Positions 1 through 17,538 of a DNA stretch of 20,800 bases are shown here, piece by piece (positions within the stretch are counted from its first letter, which is position 1; every line of letters starts with the position of its first letter). The notes below the pieces were generated by a model. That model saw nothing but the letters and a program-made list of their open reading frames with translations, was not told the DNA's origin and did not search any database. Origin of the DNA: a virus; the IMG/VR virus record IMGVR_UViG_3300034119_000290, positions 1-20,800 of that record. One strand, given 5' to 3'. A program made the translations under genes and the position numbers.

Positions 1-877
1 GATCGACGATGACCAGTTCGCACTGGCACAGACTGCTGGCCAAGGTGAAAGCTACCGCTTGGCCAAGAGCCTGGTGCAGATGCGCAAAGGCTTTGAAGAT
101 GACATGACTTCCCTGTTTGGCCGTCAGCTCGATCAGAGCCTGGTCAGCAAACTGGAGTCGGCCACCATGTCCCTGTCCAAAGGCGACGCCGACAAGCTGG
201 CCAAGATTCTGACCGCCATTCCAAAGGATATGCGCCAGATGGTCACGGCATCAGCCCTGAACACCGCATTTGGCAAGGCCACCCAAAACGGCGCTCTGAA
301 CTTCAACACCTATGCCAAGTGGTACGAAGGCCTGCTGGCCAACAAGCAGGCCTATGCCGCGCTGATGGCTAACCTTCCACAGCCTGCACGCAAGCAGCTG
401 TCTGATCTGTACCGCGTAGCCAGCAACGTAAGCAAGGCCACCCGCGAGCGCATCACCACCGGCCGCATCCAAGCCGTCCAGCAGGAGCTGCAGGGCGCTG
501 ACAACATGCTGTCGAACATCTACGGCCTGGCCAAGCGTGCAGCCGTCGGTGTGCCCATCGAGGCAGCCACAAGCCTTGTCGGCCTGCCTGGTGCTGGTAT
601 TGCATCCGGTTTGACAGCAGCACTGACCAAGGGCAAGACAAATGCCCTCAAGGCTGCCGACGATCTGATCGCCTCACCTGAGTTTCAGCGCCTGGCTGTT
701 GAGGCTGTTTCCACCAACAGCAACCCGTCAAAGGCTACCGTAAAGGCCGTCTTGATGTCACAATCTTTCCAAAAGTTTGCCGATGCGGTGAAACTCCCAC
801 GCGAAATGAGTGCGCGTGAGAAGTTCATCGTTCAATCGCTGCAGGCCCAGGAGCAATTTGAACAGGAGAACCAGTAA
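1..877 (+). CDS. Internal virion / DNA-ejection-type protein, C-terminal part (5' end outside window)
   Basis: The reading frame (codons starting at base 2) is open to the left edge, so the gene begins outside the window; a TTG at 59 is not needed as a start. About 291 residues are visible. They are alanine-, glutamine- and lysine-rich and mostly helical, with one glycine/alanine-rich weakly hydrophobic stretch near VGLPGAGIASGLTAAL (around 560-630). This fits the C-terminal end of the large ejection or internal virion proteins of podoviruses, which sit inside the capsid and enter the host envelope with the DNA; in many such proteins an N-terminal muramidase domain lies upstream, but none is visible here. 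The stop TAA overlaps the tailspike ATG (TAATG). Its place just before the tailspike fits a P22-like late order. Exact family is uncertain; a tail-needle or scaffold role is less likely. Confidence 0.6.
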   Translation, partial: IDDDQFALAQTAGQGESYRLAKSLVQMRKGFEDDMTSLFGRQLDQSLVSKLESATMSLSKGDADKLAKILTAIPKDMRQMVTASALNTAFGKATQNGALNFNTYAKWYEGLLANKQAYAALMANLPQPARKQLSDLYRVASNVSKATRERITTGRIQAVQQELQGADNMLSNIYGLAKRAAVGVPIEAATSLVGLPGAGIASGLTAALTKGKTNALKAADDLIASPEFQRLAVEAVSTNSNPSKATVKAVLMSQSFQKFADAVKLPREMSAREKFIVQSLQAQEQFEQENQ

Positions 878-7828: not shown

Positions 7829-7977
7829 GACTTCACCTTGTCCAGCTCAAGCCGGATGTAGTGAAGCACCTGGGCGCTCAGGCTGCGAGTGTTACGCTCG
7901 GCCTCGGCCTTGAGCTTGGCCATGATCTCGTCCGGCAGGCGGACGGTCACGTATTGGGTTTTGTTCTTGCTGGTCAT
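7825..7977 (-). CDS. Arc-like ribbon-helix-helix DNA-binding protein
   Basis: 50 residues from ATG 7977, with AAGGAG six bases upstream and an ATGA overlap. The strand TQYVTVRLPDEIMAKL followed by two helices (KLKAEAERNTRSLSAQVLHY) is the ribbon-helix-helix fold of Arc/CopG-type repressors: the strand contacts DNA and the R-S-L-S turn starts the second helix. It probably acts as a dimer or tetramer repressor of early phage transcription. Candidate targets in this window are the CCAC repeats at 6201-6230 and 11926-11936; that pairing is inference. Confidence 0.82.
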   Translation of the reverse strand: MTSKNKTQYVTVRLPDEIMAKLKAEAERNTRSLSAQVLHYIRLELDKVKS

Positions 7978-8408
7978 TGTTCGCTCCTTACAGGGTTCAT
8001 GTCTGCGTTGACATACCAATCTCGCAGACCCCAAGCGTCGTACAGCGCATGGTGAGGATTGCTGGAAACTGTGTCAACGCGCAAAACTTGCATCGTCAAA
8101 GGTGGTGTGTCGAGCCGCGTTCCTGGGCCAGTGATCAACACTTTGCAGAACCACATGATGTCTTCCGGCCAGTCGGCAATCAGACGAACCGATTCGAACT
8201 GACGCAGGAAGATTTCAAGCTGCTCTTGCAGACTTTCAAACGTGATCCACGGCTTTCCAAGTTTCGGCATCACGTTCTCAGCGATCCATGGCTCTGGGTT
8301 ATCGCAGCCAAGCACCTCATAAAACGACTGGCCATCTTCTGCAACCAGCGCCAGCGAGATCAACTCTCCACCGTAGCCATTCCACTCTCCGTCGATGAAA
8401 ATCCTCAT
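7974..8408 (-). CDS. DEDDh 3'-5' exoribonuclease-like protein (Rv2179c/RNase T fold)
   Basis: 144 residues. D6-x-E8 in IDGEW, D79 in LIADWPED, and H119-x4-D124 in HHALYDA give a complete DEDDh metal-binding set. ELISLALVAEDGQSFYEVL and AENVMPKLGKPW match the Rv2179c-like exoribonuclease family, which degrades RNA 3' overhangs. In a phage early operon it may act on host or phage RNA, or on nucleic-acid signals of defence systems; those roles are inference. Length is slightly short of cellular relatives. Stop overlaps the ribbon-helix-helix start. Confidence 0.75.
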   Translation of the reverse strand: MRIFIDGEWNGYGGELISLALVAEDGQSFYEVLGCDNPEPWIAENVMPKLGKPWITFESLQEQLEIFLRQFESVRLIADWPEDIMWFCKVLITGPGTRLDTPPLTMQVLRVDTVSSNPHHALYDAWGLRDWYVNADMNPVRSEQ

Positions 8409-8776
8409 GCCTCCTCCTTCGCGTCATCGACAGGCGCTGTCTGGCGCAAAGCGTGAACCACAGCTCGGAAAATGAAGTCCTTGGCCTGTTGCTCACGTGG
8501 CAGCATGTCAAATGGCACGATGCAATGATGGGTCTTGGCGTCTGGGTTTTTCTCTGGGCCATACACCCAGCCTTCGGCAACTTTCTGGGCCATCCAGCTT
8601 TCATGGCTGGCTTCAGGCCCGACATTGTTTTCGGTGTGCAACTTGACGCCAAGCATGGCGCTGTCTTTTTGCCACTGAGGTGCGTCCTCCCATGCTGGCT
8701 GGCTCATGTCACCAAGCGCTTGGCAATAGGCTCGGTTCACTTCATGGCAAACGCGTGCGATCTGTTCGTTGTTCAT
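8405..8776 (-). CDS. RyR-domain protein
   Basis: 123 residues, essentially one RyR (ryanodine receptor repeat) domain: IARVCHEVNRAYCQALGD, SQPAWEDAPQWQKDSAMLGV, ASHESWMAQKVAEGWVYG and CIVPFDMLPREQQAKDFIF. The order and spacing fit the family closely. RyR domains recur in phage early regions; the biochemical role in phages is not established, though a ligand-binding or regulatory role is often considered. ATGA overlaps on both sides put it in one message with the exoribonuclease-like and DNA-binding genes. Confidence 0.83.
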   Translation of the reverse strand: MNNEQIARVCHEVNRAYCQALGDMSQPAWEDAPQWQKDSAMLGVKLHTENNVGPEASHESWMAQKVAEGWVYGPEKNPDAKTHHCIVPFDMLPREQQAKDFIFRAVVHALRQTAPVDDAKEEA

Positions 8777-9000
8777 GCTGTCTCCTTTGCATCTTCAAAC
8801 ATATCTGCTGTTGCAGGGCCACCGGCCAGCTCGACCGGAATGCCACTGGTCAGCAGGCTCACCAGATCATCCTGGCCAGCCACCTCGATGTCGAAGCGCG
8901 TCTGCGCTGCGTGCCGGATGGCCTGGGCCTGGTTGCCTGCGCGGATCAGGCGGTGCTTGTTGGTCTCCACGTCGGTGACCAGGTAAATGCGTGTGCTCAT
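8773..9000 (-). CDS. Conserved small phage protein, unknown function
   Basis: 75 residues with GAGGAG five bases before the ATG. MSTRIYLVTDVETNKHRLIR followed by AGNQAQAIRHAAQ and FDIEVAGQDDLVSLL is a pattern I associate with a common phage family (an opening strand, an R-A-x-NxAQA helix, then A-x-x-D-x-V). Predicted small alpha/beta fold. Function unknown. The 9 bases before the upstream gene's stop are the only non-overlapping junction nearby. Confidence 0.68.
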   Translation of the reverse strand: MSTRIYLVTDVETNKHRLIRAGNQAQAIRHAAQTRFDIEVAGQDDLVSLLTSGIPVELAGGPATADMFEDAKETA

Positions 9001-9009
9001 GGTTGCTCC

Positions 9010-9246
9010 TCAAAATTTCCAGGTGGCTGCTTTGACTGCCCACATCTGTCCGGTCTGGATTTCTGTGATGGCAATGCTGGCCATGCGTGCGATCTCGCTG
9101 TTGGGCTGGTTGGTGCGCAGCTCGTGAATCTCGTTGATCAAGTCGGCGCACTTGCGTTTGATCGCTTCGACTGTTGGGTCTCCGCTTGGGTTGAATGTCA
9201 GGCCGACGGCCTTTTCTCCGAAAGTCAGTTGACGTTGTTCTTGCAT
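9010..9246 (-). CDS. Probable Acb2/Tad1-hairpin-domain protein (cyclic-nucleotide sponge candidate)
   Basis: 78 residues with GGAG before the ATG. LTFGEKAVGLTFNPSGD is followed by two helices: VEAIKRKCADLINEIHELRT and EIARMASIAITEIQTGQMWA, ending in VKAATWKF. The two-helix hairpin with a closing (Q)xxMWAVKA segment is what I recall for the Acb2/Tad1 hairpin family (formerly a DUF). Characterised members bind cyclic oligonucleotide or ADP-ribose-type signals and block CBASS or Thoeris defence. Recognition is from memory of the motif, not a search. This broad subfamily includes many uncharacterised members, so activity cannot be assumed. Its start overlaps the end of the upstream gene by 22 bases. 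Confidence 0.55.
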   Translation of the reverse strand: MQEQRQLTFGEKAVGLTFNPSGDPTVEAIKRKCADLINEIHELRTNQPNSEIARMASIAITEIQTGQMWAVKAATWKF

Positions 9247-9731
9247 GGTTGCTCCATTGGGGTTGTTGAATCAAAAAGGTCTGGTGGCCCTTCGAGAAGG
9301 ACGTTTGTTTCGTCTTGCACCAGCTTGGCCAGTTGCGATACTTCTGGCGCGGTGGGGTAAATGGTCACGCTGCAGGTCAATGCGATCACGCCACCGTCAC
9401 GTGGTGTGATGCTGAACTTCTTGATCTCAGCGCCGACAAATGTTTGGCTGCCGATCTCAACGGTGGCCGATGACACCAGGTTGCCGTACTGCACAGGCGT
9501 GAGCCAAAGATTGCGGACGATCAAGGCATTGGTATCACCTCTCCACAAGAAGGCCTCCAAGGCGTCGTCAAAGTACCCGCACAGCGCCCTGTCTATTCCT
9601 TTGATCTCCATCTTGATGTCCACGGCCAGAATCTTCTCGTCGTCTGGCCCTTCCTTGCGCACGTTCAGGTGCTTGATCGCTGCCGAGCCGGACACCTTGA
9701 ATGGTGGCCGCTTTGGTTGTTGCTCTTCCAT
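9225..9731 (-). CDS. Conserved phage protein beside SSB, unknown function
   Basis: 168 residues from ATG 9731, preferred because GGAG lies six bases upstream; an ATG at 9743 overlapping the SSB stop is the alternative and adds four residues. Contains FKVSGSAAIKHLNVRKEG, EKILAVDIKMEIKGIDRALC, IVRNLWLTPVQYGN and GGVIALTCSVTIYP. Mostly beta strands, suggesting a beta-sandwich or barrel. It recurs next to recombination and SSB genes in related phages, so a role in ssDNA handling is possible but unproven. No catalytic motif seen. Confidence 0.66.
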   Translation of the reverse strand: MEEQQPKRPPFKVSGSAAIKHLNVRKEGPDDEKILAVDIKMEIKGIDRALCGYFDDALEAFLWRGDTNALIVRNLWLTPVQYGNLVSSATVEIGSQTFVGAEIKKFSITPRDGGVIALTCSVTIYPTAPEVSQLAKLVQDETNVLLEGPPDLFDSTTPMEQPCKNNVN

Positions 9732-9742
9732 TTTTGTCTCCA

Positions 9743-10159
9743 TCAGAAGGGAATATCATCATCCATGTCGTCAAAGCCGGAGCCATGCGACTGTGGTGCT
9801 GCTTGCGGTTTCGGCTGCGGCTTAGGCTGGCTGCTTGCCTGCTCACCACCGGACACAAACTCCAGATCGACCAGGCGTGCGACCATCTTGGTGGCCTGCG
9901 TGCCGTCGCCTTTGGTGAAAGTCTGGATGCTCACATCCTCAAGGTATGCCACGATCTGGCCACCCTTCTTGATGTACGGTGCCAGCGACTCTGCGCGTTG
10001 GCCCCACAGCGAGGCATCGACCCACTGCGTCGGGCGCTTGCCGTCGTCGCCTTTCTTGCCGTAAGTGAACGCCAGCGAGACGTTGGCCACCGCTGCTCCG
10101 CCTGGTGTGTACCTAATTTCAGCATCACGCCCAATGCGTGCCAGTCCGTTTGCTTTCAT
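9743..10159 (-). CDS. ssb: Single-stranded DNA-binding protein
   Basis: 138 residues from ATG 10159 with AAGGAG eight bases upstream. Residues 1-105 form the OB fold (LARIGRDAEIRYTPGGAAVA, QWVDASLWGQRAESLAPYIK, GGQIVAYLEDVSIQTF). A glutamine/proline-rich linker (QPKPQPKPQAAPQ) leads to the acidic tip DDMDDDIPF, the conserved docking tail for recombination and repair partners. It coats ssDNA during recombination and replication and should work with the annealase and exonuclease encoded upstream in the same unit. Confidence 0.94.
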   Translation of the reverse strand: MKANGLARIGRDAEIRYTPGGAAVANVSLAFTYGKKGDDGKRPTQWVDASLWGQRAESLAPYIKKGGQIVAYLEDVSIQTFTKGDGTQATKMVARLVDLEFVSGGEQASSQPKPQPKPQAAPQSHGSGFDDMDDDIPF

Positions 10160-10446
10160 ACCGTGCTCTCCTTCAGTTTGTAAATGCGTACGACACGAGC
10201 ATGTGCCGATGCATGGGTTGCTTGACAAAAGCCGATTGCTTGGAAGGCATTACCGCGAAGCACTGCCCCCCATGTGTTGGGATGAAAGTCGTCTGGCAGC
10301 TCGATGAACTTCCGAACATCATTGATGGTCACCTGGCCAGCACGCCTTGCGATTGCAATCGCAGTTCCGCGTGCCTTGGCGATCCATTCCTCGCGGCCAA
10401 TGGACACGCGAGCGATGCCTGCATCTCGAAGGTCGCGCCCGTTCAT
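10156..10446 (-). CDS. Conserved phage protein, possible winged-helix fold
   Basis: 96 residues from ATG 10446 (ATGA with the upstream stop). RRAGQVTINDVRKFIELPDD followed by HPNTWGAVLRGNAFQAIGFC and ending ARVVRIYKLKE is typical of a small phage family where a predicted helix-turn-helix and a beta wing carry the HPN-x-WGA signature. Related proteins occur in recombination or replication operons and are presumed to bind DNA. No direct functional evidence known to me. ATGA overlap with ssb. Confidence 0.66.
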   Translation of the reverse strand: MNGRDLRDAGIARVSIGREEWIAKARGTAIAIARRAGQVTINDVRKFIELPDDFHPNTWGAVLRGNAFQAIGFCQATHASAHARVVRIYKLKESTV

Positions 10447-10655
10447 GCGTCCCTCGCTTTCAGCATGGCGTCTGCAACAAAATAAGCGTCTCGTGCGTAC
10501 AAGTCCGCGCCGGACTGCGGCTGCACGGGGCACGCCAGCATGCCCTGCATCGCCTTGGCCGCAAAGTAGTCGCGCATGGTCATGCCTTGCAAATTGCGAA
10601 TCAGTGCTTCTTCGCCAACGGGAAACGCTGGCCCACCTGTGTTTGTGTTGCTCAT
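10443..10655 (-). CDS. Conserved small phage protein (GGPAFP ... MTMRDYFAAKAMQG family)
   Basis: 70 residues. GGPAFPVGEE, GMTMRDYFAAKAMQGMLA and YARDAYFVADAMLKARD are hallmarks of a very common phage protein of unknown function found beside recombination genes. The opening is flexible, the rest two helices. ATGA overlaps on both sides. Nothing unusual in length. Confidence 0.78.
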   Translation of the reverse strand: MSNTNTGGPAFPVGEEALIRNLQGMTMRDYFAAKAMQGMLACPVQPQSGADLYARDAYFVADAMLKARDA

Positions 10656-11278
10656 GCTGCGTCCTTGTAAGACTGGATGAACTCGACCTCGCGCTCGATG
10701 TCTCCTAGGAACTTGATCACCTCAATCTCCAGCTCGTTGATGGCTTTCTCATCGCGCATCACCCTGCGAATGATGAGCTGGGCATTTTCTGGAAAATCTG
10801 GGTTGTAGGACACGAAGTCGCACCACTCGCGCTCTGCAATCCAAAGCTGGCCTTGCACCTGCCAGCGGTAAGCTGTCGGGCACTTTCCTGCCTCCAGGCG
10901 CAAATACTCCAGGTGGGTCTTTGGCATCGGGCACTTGTATTCGGTCATGCCGTTTTTGCCGACCAGACCGTCTGGGCTGACCCCGACCTGCATGGTGTTG
11001 TGCATGCAGAAGCCGATTTCCTCCACAAGCTGGCCTGTGCTGGCTTCATACGCCAGCCTGGCCAAAGGCTCGCGCTCTGTGCCCTGCTCCATTGCAAATG
11101 TGGTCTTGAACTCGTCACGCACCCCGGTGATGCGCTCCAAGGCCAAGGCCGTCAGGTAGGTGGCGCGGGTTGCTCCACCACCCTTGGCCATGATGTCGCT
11201 AAACTTGGAGCCGGATGGCACGCCCACACGCGCCTGCTTCCACTCGTCGGTGCCTTGATCTGCTGTGATGACTCTCAT
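10652..11278 (-). CDS. YqaJ/lambda-exonuclease-type recombinase nuclease
   Basis: 208 residues. The nuclease core is visible: EQGTEREPLAR at about 64-74, the catalytic aspartate in SPDG (D103), E113 and K115 in TEYKCP, and RWQVQGQLWIA (138-148) as the following helix. N-terminal GTDEWKQARVGVPSGSKFSD is the typical YqaJ start. It would resect double-stranded ends 5'-3' to give 3' single strands for the annealase encoded just upstream. ATGA overlap with that gene (11275-11278). Confidence 0.92.
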   Translation of the reverse strand: MRVITADQGTDEWKQARVGVPSGSKFSDIMAKGGGATRATYLTALALERITGVRDEFKTTFAMEQGTEREPLARLAYEASTGQLVEEIGFCMHNTMQVGVSPDGLVGKNGMTEYKCPMPKTHLEYLRLEAGKCPTAYRWQVQGQLWIAEREWCDFVSYNPDFPENAQLIIRRVMRDEKAINELEIEVIKFLGDIEREVEFIQSYKDAA

Positions 11279-11862
11279 TCTGCTGCCCCTTGTGTGTCGG
11301 CGGTCTTGGCTGCCTTCTTGAGGGCAGGGCCTTGGGCTTGCCAGAAGGCTGCCTTGTGGGCTGACTTTGGCAGGGCCATGAACGCATCGGACAAAGCCTT
11401 CTCGCCTTGCATGGCTGCCTCGCGCATGGCTGGCAGTGTCTGCGCTTCATATTCTGGGTAACCGTCCAGCTGCTTCGGTGTTTTTTTGCTTGTGGCCTGG
11501 CCATCATCGTCCTCTGGTGCAATGCCGCAGGCTGCCATCAGGCTGTAGCGGCGTGCATAGGTCAGGGCGCTGCCGTACCCTTGGGCGTCGTGCTTGACCG
11601 CTGGAACGTGCAGTTTGCCTGCTGAGAACACCTCGCCAGATTCGTGAATGAAGAGGGTTTCAATCAAGATGCCAGATTCACATTCGTGCGTCTGCTGCAT
11701 CAACATGATGCCGTTGTTGTTCAGGCCATCAATGACCGCTTCGACGCAATCACCAAGATCCGCATACTTGGCCTTGAGGTGTGGGTTGTTCTTTGTCTTC
11801 AGGGCTGGCCCGAACTCTCGCTGGGCTTTCACCAGGGCTGCTGCTATCTGCTTGATTTCCAT
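11275..11862 (-). CDS. erf: ERF-family single-strand annealing protein
   Basis: 195 residues from ATG 11862, with AAAGG about nine bases upstream; a GTG-type extension to 11904 runs into the promoter and was dropped. LVKAQREFGPALKTKNNPHL, KYADLGDCVEAVIDGLNNNG and the conserved GSALTYARRYSLMAACGIAP followed by an acidic DDDG are the ERF core (residues 10-121). The C-terminal third is alanine/lysine-rich and variable. It anneals complementary strands in phage recombination, perhaps to circularise terminally redundant genomes, paired with the YqaJ nuclease and SSB. First gene of the leftward unit. Confidence 0.93.
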   Translation of the reverse strand: MEIKQIAAALVKAQREFGPALKTKNNPHLKAKYADLGDCVEAVIDGLNNNGIMLMQQTHECESGILIETLFIHESGEVFSAGKLHVPAVKHDAQGYGSALTYARRYSLMAACGIAPEDDDGQATSKKTPKQLDGYPEYEAQTLPAMREAAMQGEKALSDAFMALPKSAHKAAFWQAQGPALKKAAKTADTQGAAE

Positions 11863-11899
11863 CGTGTTTACCTTTCGTGGGTGGTTGTTGGTGAAACGA

Positions 11900-11908
11900 A
11901 TCATAGCA
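11900..11908 (-). promoter_or_regulatory. Extended -10 promoter for the leftward early operon
   Basis: On the minus strand TGC-TATGAT: -10 hexamer at 11905-11900 (five of six consensus) with the TGn extension. No good -35 is seen at 16-18 bases. Transcription would begin near 11893 and give a leader of about 30 bases before the annealase ATG. The -35 zone is covered by the CCAC boxes at 11926-11936. Confidence 0.55.
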
Positions 11909-15950: not shown

Positions 15951-16294
15951 TCATCAAGCTGCCCTGGCCACCCACCGGCCTATCCCCAAACGCCAGAAAC
16001 CATTGGGCCAAGATCGCCAAGCTCAAAAAGCAGTACCGCGAGTCCTGTTTCTGGCATGCCATGGAGCAAGGCGCACGCCCGATCCAGTCCGCCAGCCTGC
16101 ACCTGACCCTGACGTTCTACCCGCCAACCCGCAGGCAGTACGACCTGGACAACGCCCTGGCACGCATGAAAGCCGGGCTCGACGGCCTGGCCGACGTGCT
16201 GAAGGTAGACGACAAACACTGGACGCTGACCATCCGCAAGGGCGAGACGGTCGGCGGATTCGTAGAAGTTCACATCGAAAGGCCCACAGAATGA
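15947..16294 (+). CDS. rusA: RusA Holliday junction resolvase
   Basis: 115 residues. YDLDNALARMKAGLDGLADV holds the catalytic aspartates D66 and D68; D88/D89 in KVDDKHW are the third position; PWPPTGLSPNARNHW is the usual N-terminus. It cuts Holliday junctions formed by the annealase/exonuclease system and by branched replication before packaging. Length fits the family. Overlaps both neighbours by ATGA. Confidence 0.92.
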   Translation: MIIKLPWPPTGLSPNARNHWAKIAKLKKQYRESCFWHAMEQGARPIQSASLHLTLTFYPPTRRQYDLDNALARMKAGLDGLADVLKVDDKHWTLTIRKGETVGGFVEVHIERPTE

Positions 16295-17538
16295 AACTCC
16301 CAGACCATCTCGAAGTCATCCAGATCGATGCGCTGATACCCTACGCACGCAACAGCCGGACGCACTCCGACGCGCAGGTGGCGCAGATCGCCTCATCCAT
16401 CAAGGAATTCGGATTCACGAATCCTGTGCTGATTGATGGGGGGGGGGGAATCATTGCCGGACATGGCCGAGTGCTCGCTGCACGCAAGTTGGGCATGAGC
16501 GAAGTCCCGTGCATCCGATTGGAGCACCTGACCGACGCACAAAAACGCGCTTATGTGATCGCAGACAACCGGCTGGCGCTGAACTCAGGCTGGGACACTG
16601 AAATGCTGAAGGTGGAGTTTGCCGACCTGCAGGAGCTCGGTTTCGACCTCGAGCTGACCGGCTTCGACCTTGACGAGATCAAGGAGCTACTGGCACCCGT
16701 TGGCACCGAAGGCCTGACCGACCCCGACGACGCCCCACCGCTGCCAGAACACCCGCGCACCGTACCCGGCGACATTTGGGTGATGGGAAAGCACCGCCTC
16801 CTGTGTGGAGACAGCACCAGCATGGACGACCTGGCCAAGCTCTGCGAAGGGCAGCTGGTCGACATGTGGCTGACCGACCCGCCTTACAACGTGGCCTACG
16901 AGGGCAAGACAAAGGACGCGCTCAAGATCAAGAACGACGAGATGGGCGACGACCAATTCCGACAATTCTTGCGTGATGCTTACACGGCAGCCGACACGGT
17001 CATGAAGCCAGGCGCTGTGTTCTACATCTGGCACGCAGATAGCGAGGGCTACAACTTCCGAGGCGCGGCCAAGGACGCTGGCTGGACTGTCCGCCAGTGC
17101 CTGATCTGGAAAAAGTCCAGCATGGTCATGGGACGCCAGGACTACCACTGGAAGCACGAGCCATGCCTGTACGGCTGGAAGGAAGGAGCCAGTCACCTCT
17201 GGGCGGCCGACCGCAAGCAGACCACCATCCTGGAGTTCGAGAAGCCCTCCCGGAACGGTGAGCACCCGACCATGAAGCCCGTTGCCCTGTTTGAGTACCA
17301 GCTCCTGAACAACACCAAGGGCGGCGATCAAGTCCTGGACAGCTTCGGAGGCTCCGGCACCACCCTGATCGCAGCCGAGAAGAACGGCCGCGTCGCTCGA
17401 ATCATGGAACTCGATCCGAAGTATTGCGATGTGATTGTGAAGCGTTGGCAGGATTTCACAGGCAAAATAGCAACTCACGCAGAAACTGGCGAACCTTTCG
17501 CGGAGGTTACAAATGGCAACAACGAAACAAAAACTTGA
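16291..17538 (+). CDS. ParB-like domain fused to beta-class adenine DNA methyltransferase
   Basis: 415 residues. Residues 1-100 form a ParB/Srx-like domain (IDALIPYARNSRTHSDAQVA, then IIAGHGRVLAARKLGM). The methyltransferase follows: DPPY at 196-199 (motif IV, adenine-N6 type), a central target-recognition region (about 205-345), and FGGSGTT at 352-358 (motif I). Motif IV before motif I means class beta. Modification of the phage genome against restriction is the usual role. Residues G50-G53 are encoded within an 11-G tract (16438-16448); the frame is intact and gives the length expected of the family. It overlaps rusA by 4 bases and the small terminase gene by 26. Confidence 0.93.
   Translation: MKLPDHLEVIQIDALIPYARNSRTHSDAQVAQIASSIKEFGFTNPVLIDGGGGIIAGHGRVLAARKLGMSEVPCIRLEHLTDAQKRAYVIADNRLALNSGWDTEMLKVEFADLQELGFDLELTGFDLDEIKELLAPVGTEGLTDPDDAPPLPEHPRTVPGDIWVMGKHRLLCGDSTSMDDLAKLCEGQLVDMWLTDPPYNVAYEGKTKDALKIKNDEMGDDQFRQFLRDAYTAADTVMKPGAVFYIWHADSEGYNFRGAAKDAGWTVRQCLIWKKSSMVMGRQDYHWKHEPCLYGWKEGASHLWAADRKQTTILEFEKPSRNGEHPTMKPVALFEYQLLNNTKGGDQVLDSFGGSGTTLIAAEKNGRVARIMELDPKYCDVIVKRWQDFTGKIATHAETGEPFAEVTNGNNETKT
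16438..16448. repeat. 11-base poly-G tract inside the methyltransferase gene
   Basis: Eleven consecutive G follow GAT at 16435-16437 and encode Gly-Gly-Gly plus the first two bases of a fourth glycine codon, in the ParB-like domain. Tracts of this length are prone to slippage in replication, transcription and sequencing. In the given length the frame is open. Confidence 0.95.

Follow-up and report, generated by a model that had tools for sequence, protein, structure and literature searches.

A phage Acb2/Tad1-type hairpin protein paired, and in places fused, with a RyDEP-like RyR protein: a candidate counter-signalling module

Does the 78-residue product of a small phage gene intercept the messenger nucleotides of bacterial immunity, and if so does it act alone or with a partner? 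Hairpin proteins of the Acb2/Tad1 family neutralise the signals of CBASS and Thoeris, and a sequence-only reading of the locus had placed the protein in this family as a candidate inhibitor. The gene lies in a 20,800-base IMG/VR virus record, called the window here. The window carries the gene set of a tailed phage, with terminase, pectate-lyase-like, NinB, RusA-like, ParB-N/DNA methylase, ERF, YqaJ and SSB genes. The ParB and methylase domains share a single frame (16003-17538, plus strand), with the ParB N-terminal domain first and the N6/N4 DNA methylase after it, which probably serves self-modification of the phage.

The open reading frame for the small protein has 78 codons and occupies exactly positions 9010-9246 on the minus strand, with a Shine-Dalgarno-like GGAG upstream. 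Comparison with its relatives places most of the nucleotide differences at third codon positions (36 of 53 in the case of contig L025), from which we conclude that the gene is real, translated and under purifying selection. Genes on the same strand follow each other in the order ERF, YqaJ, two small genes, SSB, 172-aa protein, hairpin protein, 75-aa protein, RyR protein and RNase H-like protein (Table 1). Several of these genes end 4-22 bp inside the next, so the run from the ERF gene to the RNase H-like gene reads as one operon.

Table 1. The hairpin gene and its neighbours in the window, listed in the direction of reading
Feature	Position	Strand	Evidence
SSB, two small ORFs, YqaJ exonuclease and ERF annealing protein (upstream early recombination block)	9743..11904	-	Pfam SSB, YqaJ, ERF; PHROGs
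172-aa protein, function unknown, directly upstream of the hairpin gene and overlapping its start by 22 bp	9225..9743	-	
Acb2/Tad1-hairpin protein, candidate nucleotide-signal sponge, 78 aa	9010..9246	-	PF24729, PHROG 717, AF2 fold, purifying selection
75-aa protein between the hairpin and RyR genes, overlapping the RyR start by 4 bp	8773..9000	-	Coordinates, synteny
RyR-domain protein, 123 aa, RyDEP-like	8405..8776	-	PF02026, DyoEdafos gp78/RyDEP alignment, PDB 35TM
RNase H/exoribonuclease-like gene directly downstream of RyR, 4-bp overlap	7974..8408	-	PHROG 2259 'Rnase H' E=7e-30

Is the protein a member of the Acb2/Tad1 family? It matches the Pfam profile Acb2_Tad1_hairpin (PF24729) at 45.9 bits (E=6e-12, profile positions 8-57 of 58) against a curated cut-off of 27 bits, and the match was recovered again in a genome search; T4 Acb2 (Vs.4), used as a positive control, scored 71.4 bits. 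The protein also matches PHROG 717 (E=1.2e-7), as do all 38 of the aligned viral homologues. PHROG 717 contains Vs.4 homologues and was used to define the T4 Acb2/Vs.4 family (Jenson et al. 2023, PMC10097602). Neither PADLOC nor NCBIfam matched the protein, and a phmmer search of the PDB gave designed helical proteins only; sequence-profile searches of the PDB reached T4 Vs.4 (7uq2) at no better than E=0.11 and 0.046. The profile similarity on which the proposed family assignment depended is thus present, and membership of the Acb2/Tad1 hairpin family, judged from sequence, is well supported. Taken on its own, the protein adds one new member to a family already known.

The subfamily is a large one. 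The N-terminal motif LTFGEKAVGLTFNPSGD (residues 7-23) and the MWAVKA motif (residues 68-73) are conserved across the 38 aligned viral homologues, and the MWAVKA block is strictly conserved in unrelated phages. A search with the single sequence gave 139 close relatives; counted with a motif taken from a wider alignment, the family is encoded at no fewer than 585 viral loci. Phages of Flavobacterium, Enterobacter and Pasteurella also carry members of the subfamily, annotated there as 'hypothetical'. MWAVKA had been described as closing the protein; the motif is indeed there, but near the C-terminus rather than at the end, since ATWKF follows it.

The AlphaFold (AF2) model of the monomer has helices at residues 9-13, 24-45 and 50-75 with a pLDDT of 93.6, and the two long helices correspond to the two-helix hairpin that had been anticipated. 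The Acb2 protomer is made of a short helix and two long helices (review, PMC10419184), and the model predicts the same layout for the window protein, with the short helix at the N-terminus. Acb2 (T4 Vs.4; Pseudomonas phage PaMx33 gp24) and the window protein have PF24729 and PHROG 717 in common, but Acb2 is longer (88-94 residues against 78), and the sequence similarity between them is detectable by profile only and within the hairpin. When the T4 Acb2 family was aligned by hhalign, 21 residues were paired (window 54-74 with T4 61-81, 47% probability), all in the C-terminal block. In this 47%-probability alignment MWAVKA pairs with MWACRA of T4 Acb2, A59 and A70 stand opposite the hexamer-interface alanines A66 and A77, and the invariant K72 stands opposite R79, which contacts the ligand.

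How much of the ligand pocket is kept? The cyclic dinucleotide pocket of T4 Acb2 includes Y8, H11, K23, R79 and F82, of which R79 has K72 of the window protein opposite it in the alignment and F82 has T75/W76. The Y8/H11 segment lies outside the PF24729 match, which begins at profile position 8, and where T4 Acb2 has the segment bearing Tyr8 the window protein has GEKAVGLTFNPSGD. Neither the Pfam match nor the profile-profile alignment gave clear counterparts of the stacking residues Tyr8 and Phe82. Because the Tyr8 pocket segment cannot be aligned, the ligand and target of the hairpin protein are not readable from its sequence. A Foldseek search with the monomer model returned no Acb2 entries and nothing at E<=0.001.

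Tad1 is a different case. Loops of its N-terminal beta-sheet domain help to form the gcADPR pocket, whereas no strand is predicted in the window protein, in which just 23 residues precede the first long helix (AF2). Tad1 (SBSphiJ7, C. botulinum prophage) shares with it the Pfam hairpin domain and the general idea of a sponge; it differs, by its published architecture, in the N-terminal beta-sheet. The Acb2/Tad1 assignment accordingly holds for an Acb2-like layout and not for a full Tad1.

The RyR gene of the operon, which the sequence-only reading passed over, bears on function. Against PF02026, whose cut-off is 27.4 bits, the RyR protein (8405-8776) scores 42.3 bits, and it also finds the solved structure of RyDEP (PDB 35TM) at E=2e-10. 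According to a May 2026 preprint (PMC13232231), RyR-domain proteins of phages act on the 2'/3'-cADPR signals of Thoeris, either degrading or sequestering them, and the catalytic or ligand residues of RyDEP are H75, W78, H100 and D117. All four are kept in the window protein, as H58, W61, H83 and D100, and each is kept in at least 71 of 72 aligned RyR homologues. By profile, by these residues and by the 35TM match it is a member of the RyDEP/phage R12-domain family. Is it a glycosidase or a sponge? The four residues cannot separate the two, because sponge-type homologues of RyDEP bind without cleaving (PMC13232231). Identity of the window protein to DyoEdafos gp78, the founder with catalytic activity, is about 40% over 72 residues, and to a RyR protein from a Pectobacterium phage it is 56%; sponge-type homologue 7 of the preprint likewise comes from a Pectobacterium phage, although it is possibly another protein than the 56% match (PMC13232231). 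We infer that a sponge is likelier than a glycosidase. No NARP1 genes were seen adjoining the window RyR gene. What distinguishes the window from the RyDEP of the preprint is that the RyR gene shares an operon with an Acb2/Tad1 hairpin gene, an arrangement absent from the preprint text (PMC13232231). The RyDEP-like gene in the same operon provides the strongest contextual support for reading the hairpin protein as an inhibitor, a role for which it is a candidate.

The 75-aa protein (8773-9000) that separates the two gave no Pfam or PHROGs matches. In the phage clade of the window its gene (81-100% identity) is the next one after the hairpin gene, and it also precedes RyR genes that have no hairpin gene beside them (contigs L122, L126 and L128 and phage MW202867).

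Is the association of RyR and hairpin genes confined to this operon? RyR genes and Acb2/Tad1-type hairpin genes were found together on 24 contigs, a total that combines a scan of 80 RyR loci with further scans, and the hairpin domains of these contigs cluster into 14 groups when cut at 80% identity, whereas single linkage at 60% leaves five. The RyR scan was blind to the hairpin, and a hairpin gene lay within 0.9 kb in 17 of its 80 loci, some of which come from related phages and are hence partly non-independent; of the 65 loci flanked by at least 600 bp on either side, 13 had one. Both gene orders occur. The hairpin gene comes first in L132, L133, L134, L139, L142, L149, L396 and L303 (a Rickettsiales MAG), and the RyR gene comes first in L156, L209 and L210. 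On three contigs the two are fused in a single open reading frame, RyR then hairpin (L196/L204, L205, L206). The spacing is short in lineages whose hairpins are as low as 25-45% identical. A RyR match on L079 was left out of the count, being weak, partial and more than 1 kb away.

The fusions escape an ordinary Pfam search, which finds only their RyR part; their diverged hairpins were recognised by a custom profile derived from the family, and the unfused hairpin of L209 is also below the Pfam cut-off. The model of the L204 fusion (pLDDT 90) has a four-helix RyR domain, a short helix and a long hairpin, and its best fold matches in the PDB are RyR-domain structures (top E=2e-3). In L206 the fusion frame (140-871, plus strand) continues without a stop into an upstream DUF5522 (PF17653) segment; this protein could thus have three fused parts, or its translation could begin at an internal ATG at 281. 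Families that are fused in some genomes and tightly paired in others give a classical sign of joint function. A literature search for papers joining RyR/RyDEP with Acb2/Tad1 found none, and Acb2 is unmentioned in the text of the RyDEP preprint (PMC13232231). The pairing, natural fusions included, looks like a variant of phage anti-signalling systems that has not been described. In a further setting, Yersinia phage TG1 (KP202158.1, H118) has a RyR gene and the 162,101-base IMG/VR contig L114 has a T4-type acb2; if L114 is phage TG1, the two genes probably co-occur unlinked in this T4-like phage.

What, then, would the hairpin protein do? We consider it probable that it is a nucleotide-signal sponge in a recurrent counter-defence module with the RyDEP-like protein. 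It would be made as a small early protein of the phage and, to judge from Acb2 and Tad1, which assemble as hexamers, would form a multimer of helical hairpins. The multimer would bind a host immune messenger nucleotide tightly, and the CBASS- or Thoeris-type effector that depends on the messenger would not be switched on. The RyR partner would bind, or less likely cleave, 2'/3'-cADPR. Between them the two proteins would deal with more than one messenger, or jointly with a single one, and together they may protect the phage from abortive infection of the CBASS or Thoeris type. Counting against this reading are the thin resemblance to T4 Acb2 outside the hairpin and the position of most relatives of the window hairpin gene, which have no RyR gene beside them. 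A bolder proposal, to which we give a little under an even chance, is that RyR and hairpin make up a single counter-signalling unit, as a tight pair or a fusion; the hairpin multimer would then present several RyR pockets, or both parts would bind one messenger jointly. Such a bivalent or dual-specificity sponge is not known to have been described before. The natural pairing and fusion point to which proteins work together, and the fusions L204, L205 and L206 and the window pair are ready constructs for testing sponges of this kind.

Which messenger would the hairpin bind? It could be the same cADPR-type Thoeris signal that the RyR partner takes, rather than the cyclic oligonucleotides of CBASS, in which case joining the two, as neighbours or in one chain, would increase avidity or let one domain pass the ligand on to its partner. 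We find this possible but doubtful. The protein is without the beta-sheet domain that supplies the gcADPR pocket loops of Tad1, and many hairpin genes occur without RyR. In its favour are the fusions and short-spaced pairs, the binding of gcADPR by Tad1 in the same Pfam family (PMC12043709), and the failure to recognise, in the window protein, the N-terminal segment that contributes to the CDN pocket in T4 Acb2. The candidate host genus gives a further hint. The closest cellular copy of the hairpin, 90% identical, is in a Limnohabitans MAG, and the GTDB genus of this MAG has targets of both kinds, with ThsB_TIR somewhat commoner (5/60 genomes) than CD-NTases over the cut-off (2/60). The host assignment is weak, however: the window terminase was not found in 90 genomes of the candidate host genus, and no integrated copy confirms Limnohabitans as host. 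An apparent CD-NTase (SMODS) close to the hairpin of L283 was discarded, as L317 has no 40-mers in common with L283 and the overlapping frame of L283 is a terminase.

Could the two genes instead be mere co-cargo of a hypervariable early-region counter-defence locus, with no joint function? Within the window's phage clade the hairpin and 75-aa genes remain side by side, but RyR is present in some members and missing from others, and RyR also adjoins other small genes, such as Phage_gp49_66; both observations favour a locus of this type. We nevertheless think co-cargo unlikely, since fusions on three contigs, occurrence in both orders and short spacing between such diverged hairpins and RyR exceed the needs of a shared island, and the pair recurs in the Rickettsiales MAG and in unrelated viral contigs. 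A purely structural or regulatory role for the helical hairpin, with no tie to signalling, is improbable: short helical hairpins easily give chance matches, the PDB sequence search gave designed helical proteins and the fold search nothing significant, but the Pfam E-value over the curated cut-off, PHROG 717 in all members, the conserved MWAVKA block and the pairing with a RyDEP-like protein all speak against it.

The linkage of hairpin and RyR genes also provides a guilt-by-association tool for further anti-signalling genes, and the 75-aa protein is a candidate for one. RyR genes without a hairpin neighbour often adjoin a Phage_gp49_66 (PF13876) gene, which lies upstream in L137, L144, L151, L152, L153, L185, L188 and L190 and downstream in L136, L140, L147, L167 and L189. 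Gp48 of phage N4, numbered next to gp49, is the sponge Acb4 (PMC12657230), and a shared anti-defence neighbourhood of Phage_gp49_66 and RyR is possible. The C-termini of the RyR proteins of L133 and L134 and of the gp49_66-like protein of L136 have a common tail close to FPLGKACDLSGEGTCEACQ, which suggests that protein bodies have been swapped upstream of it.
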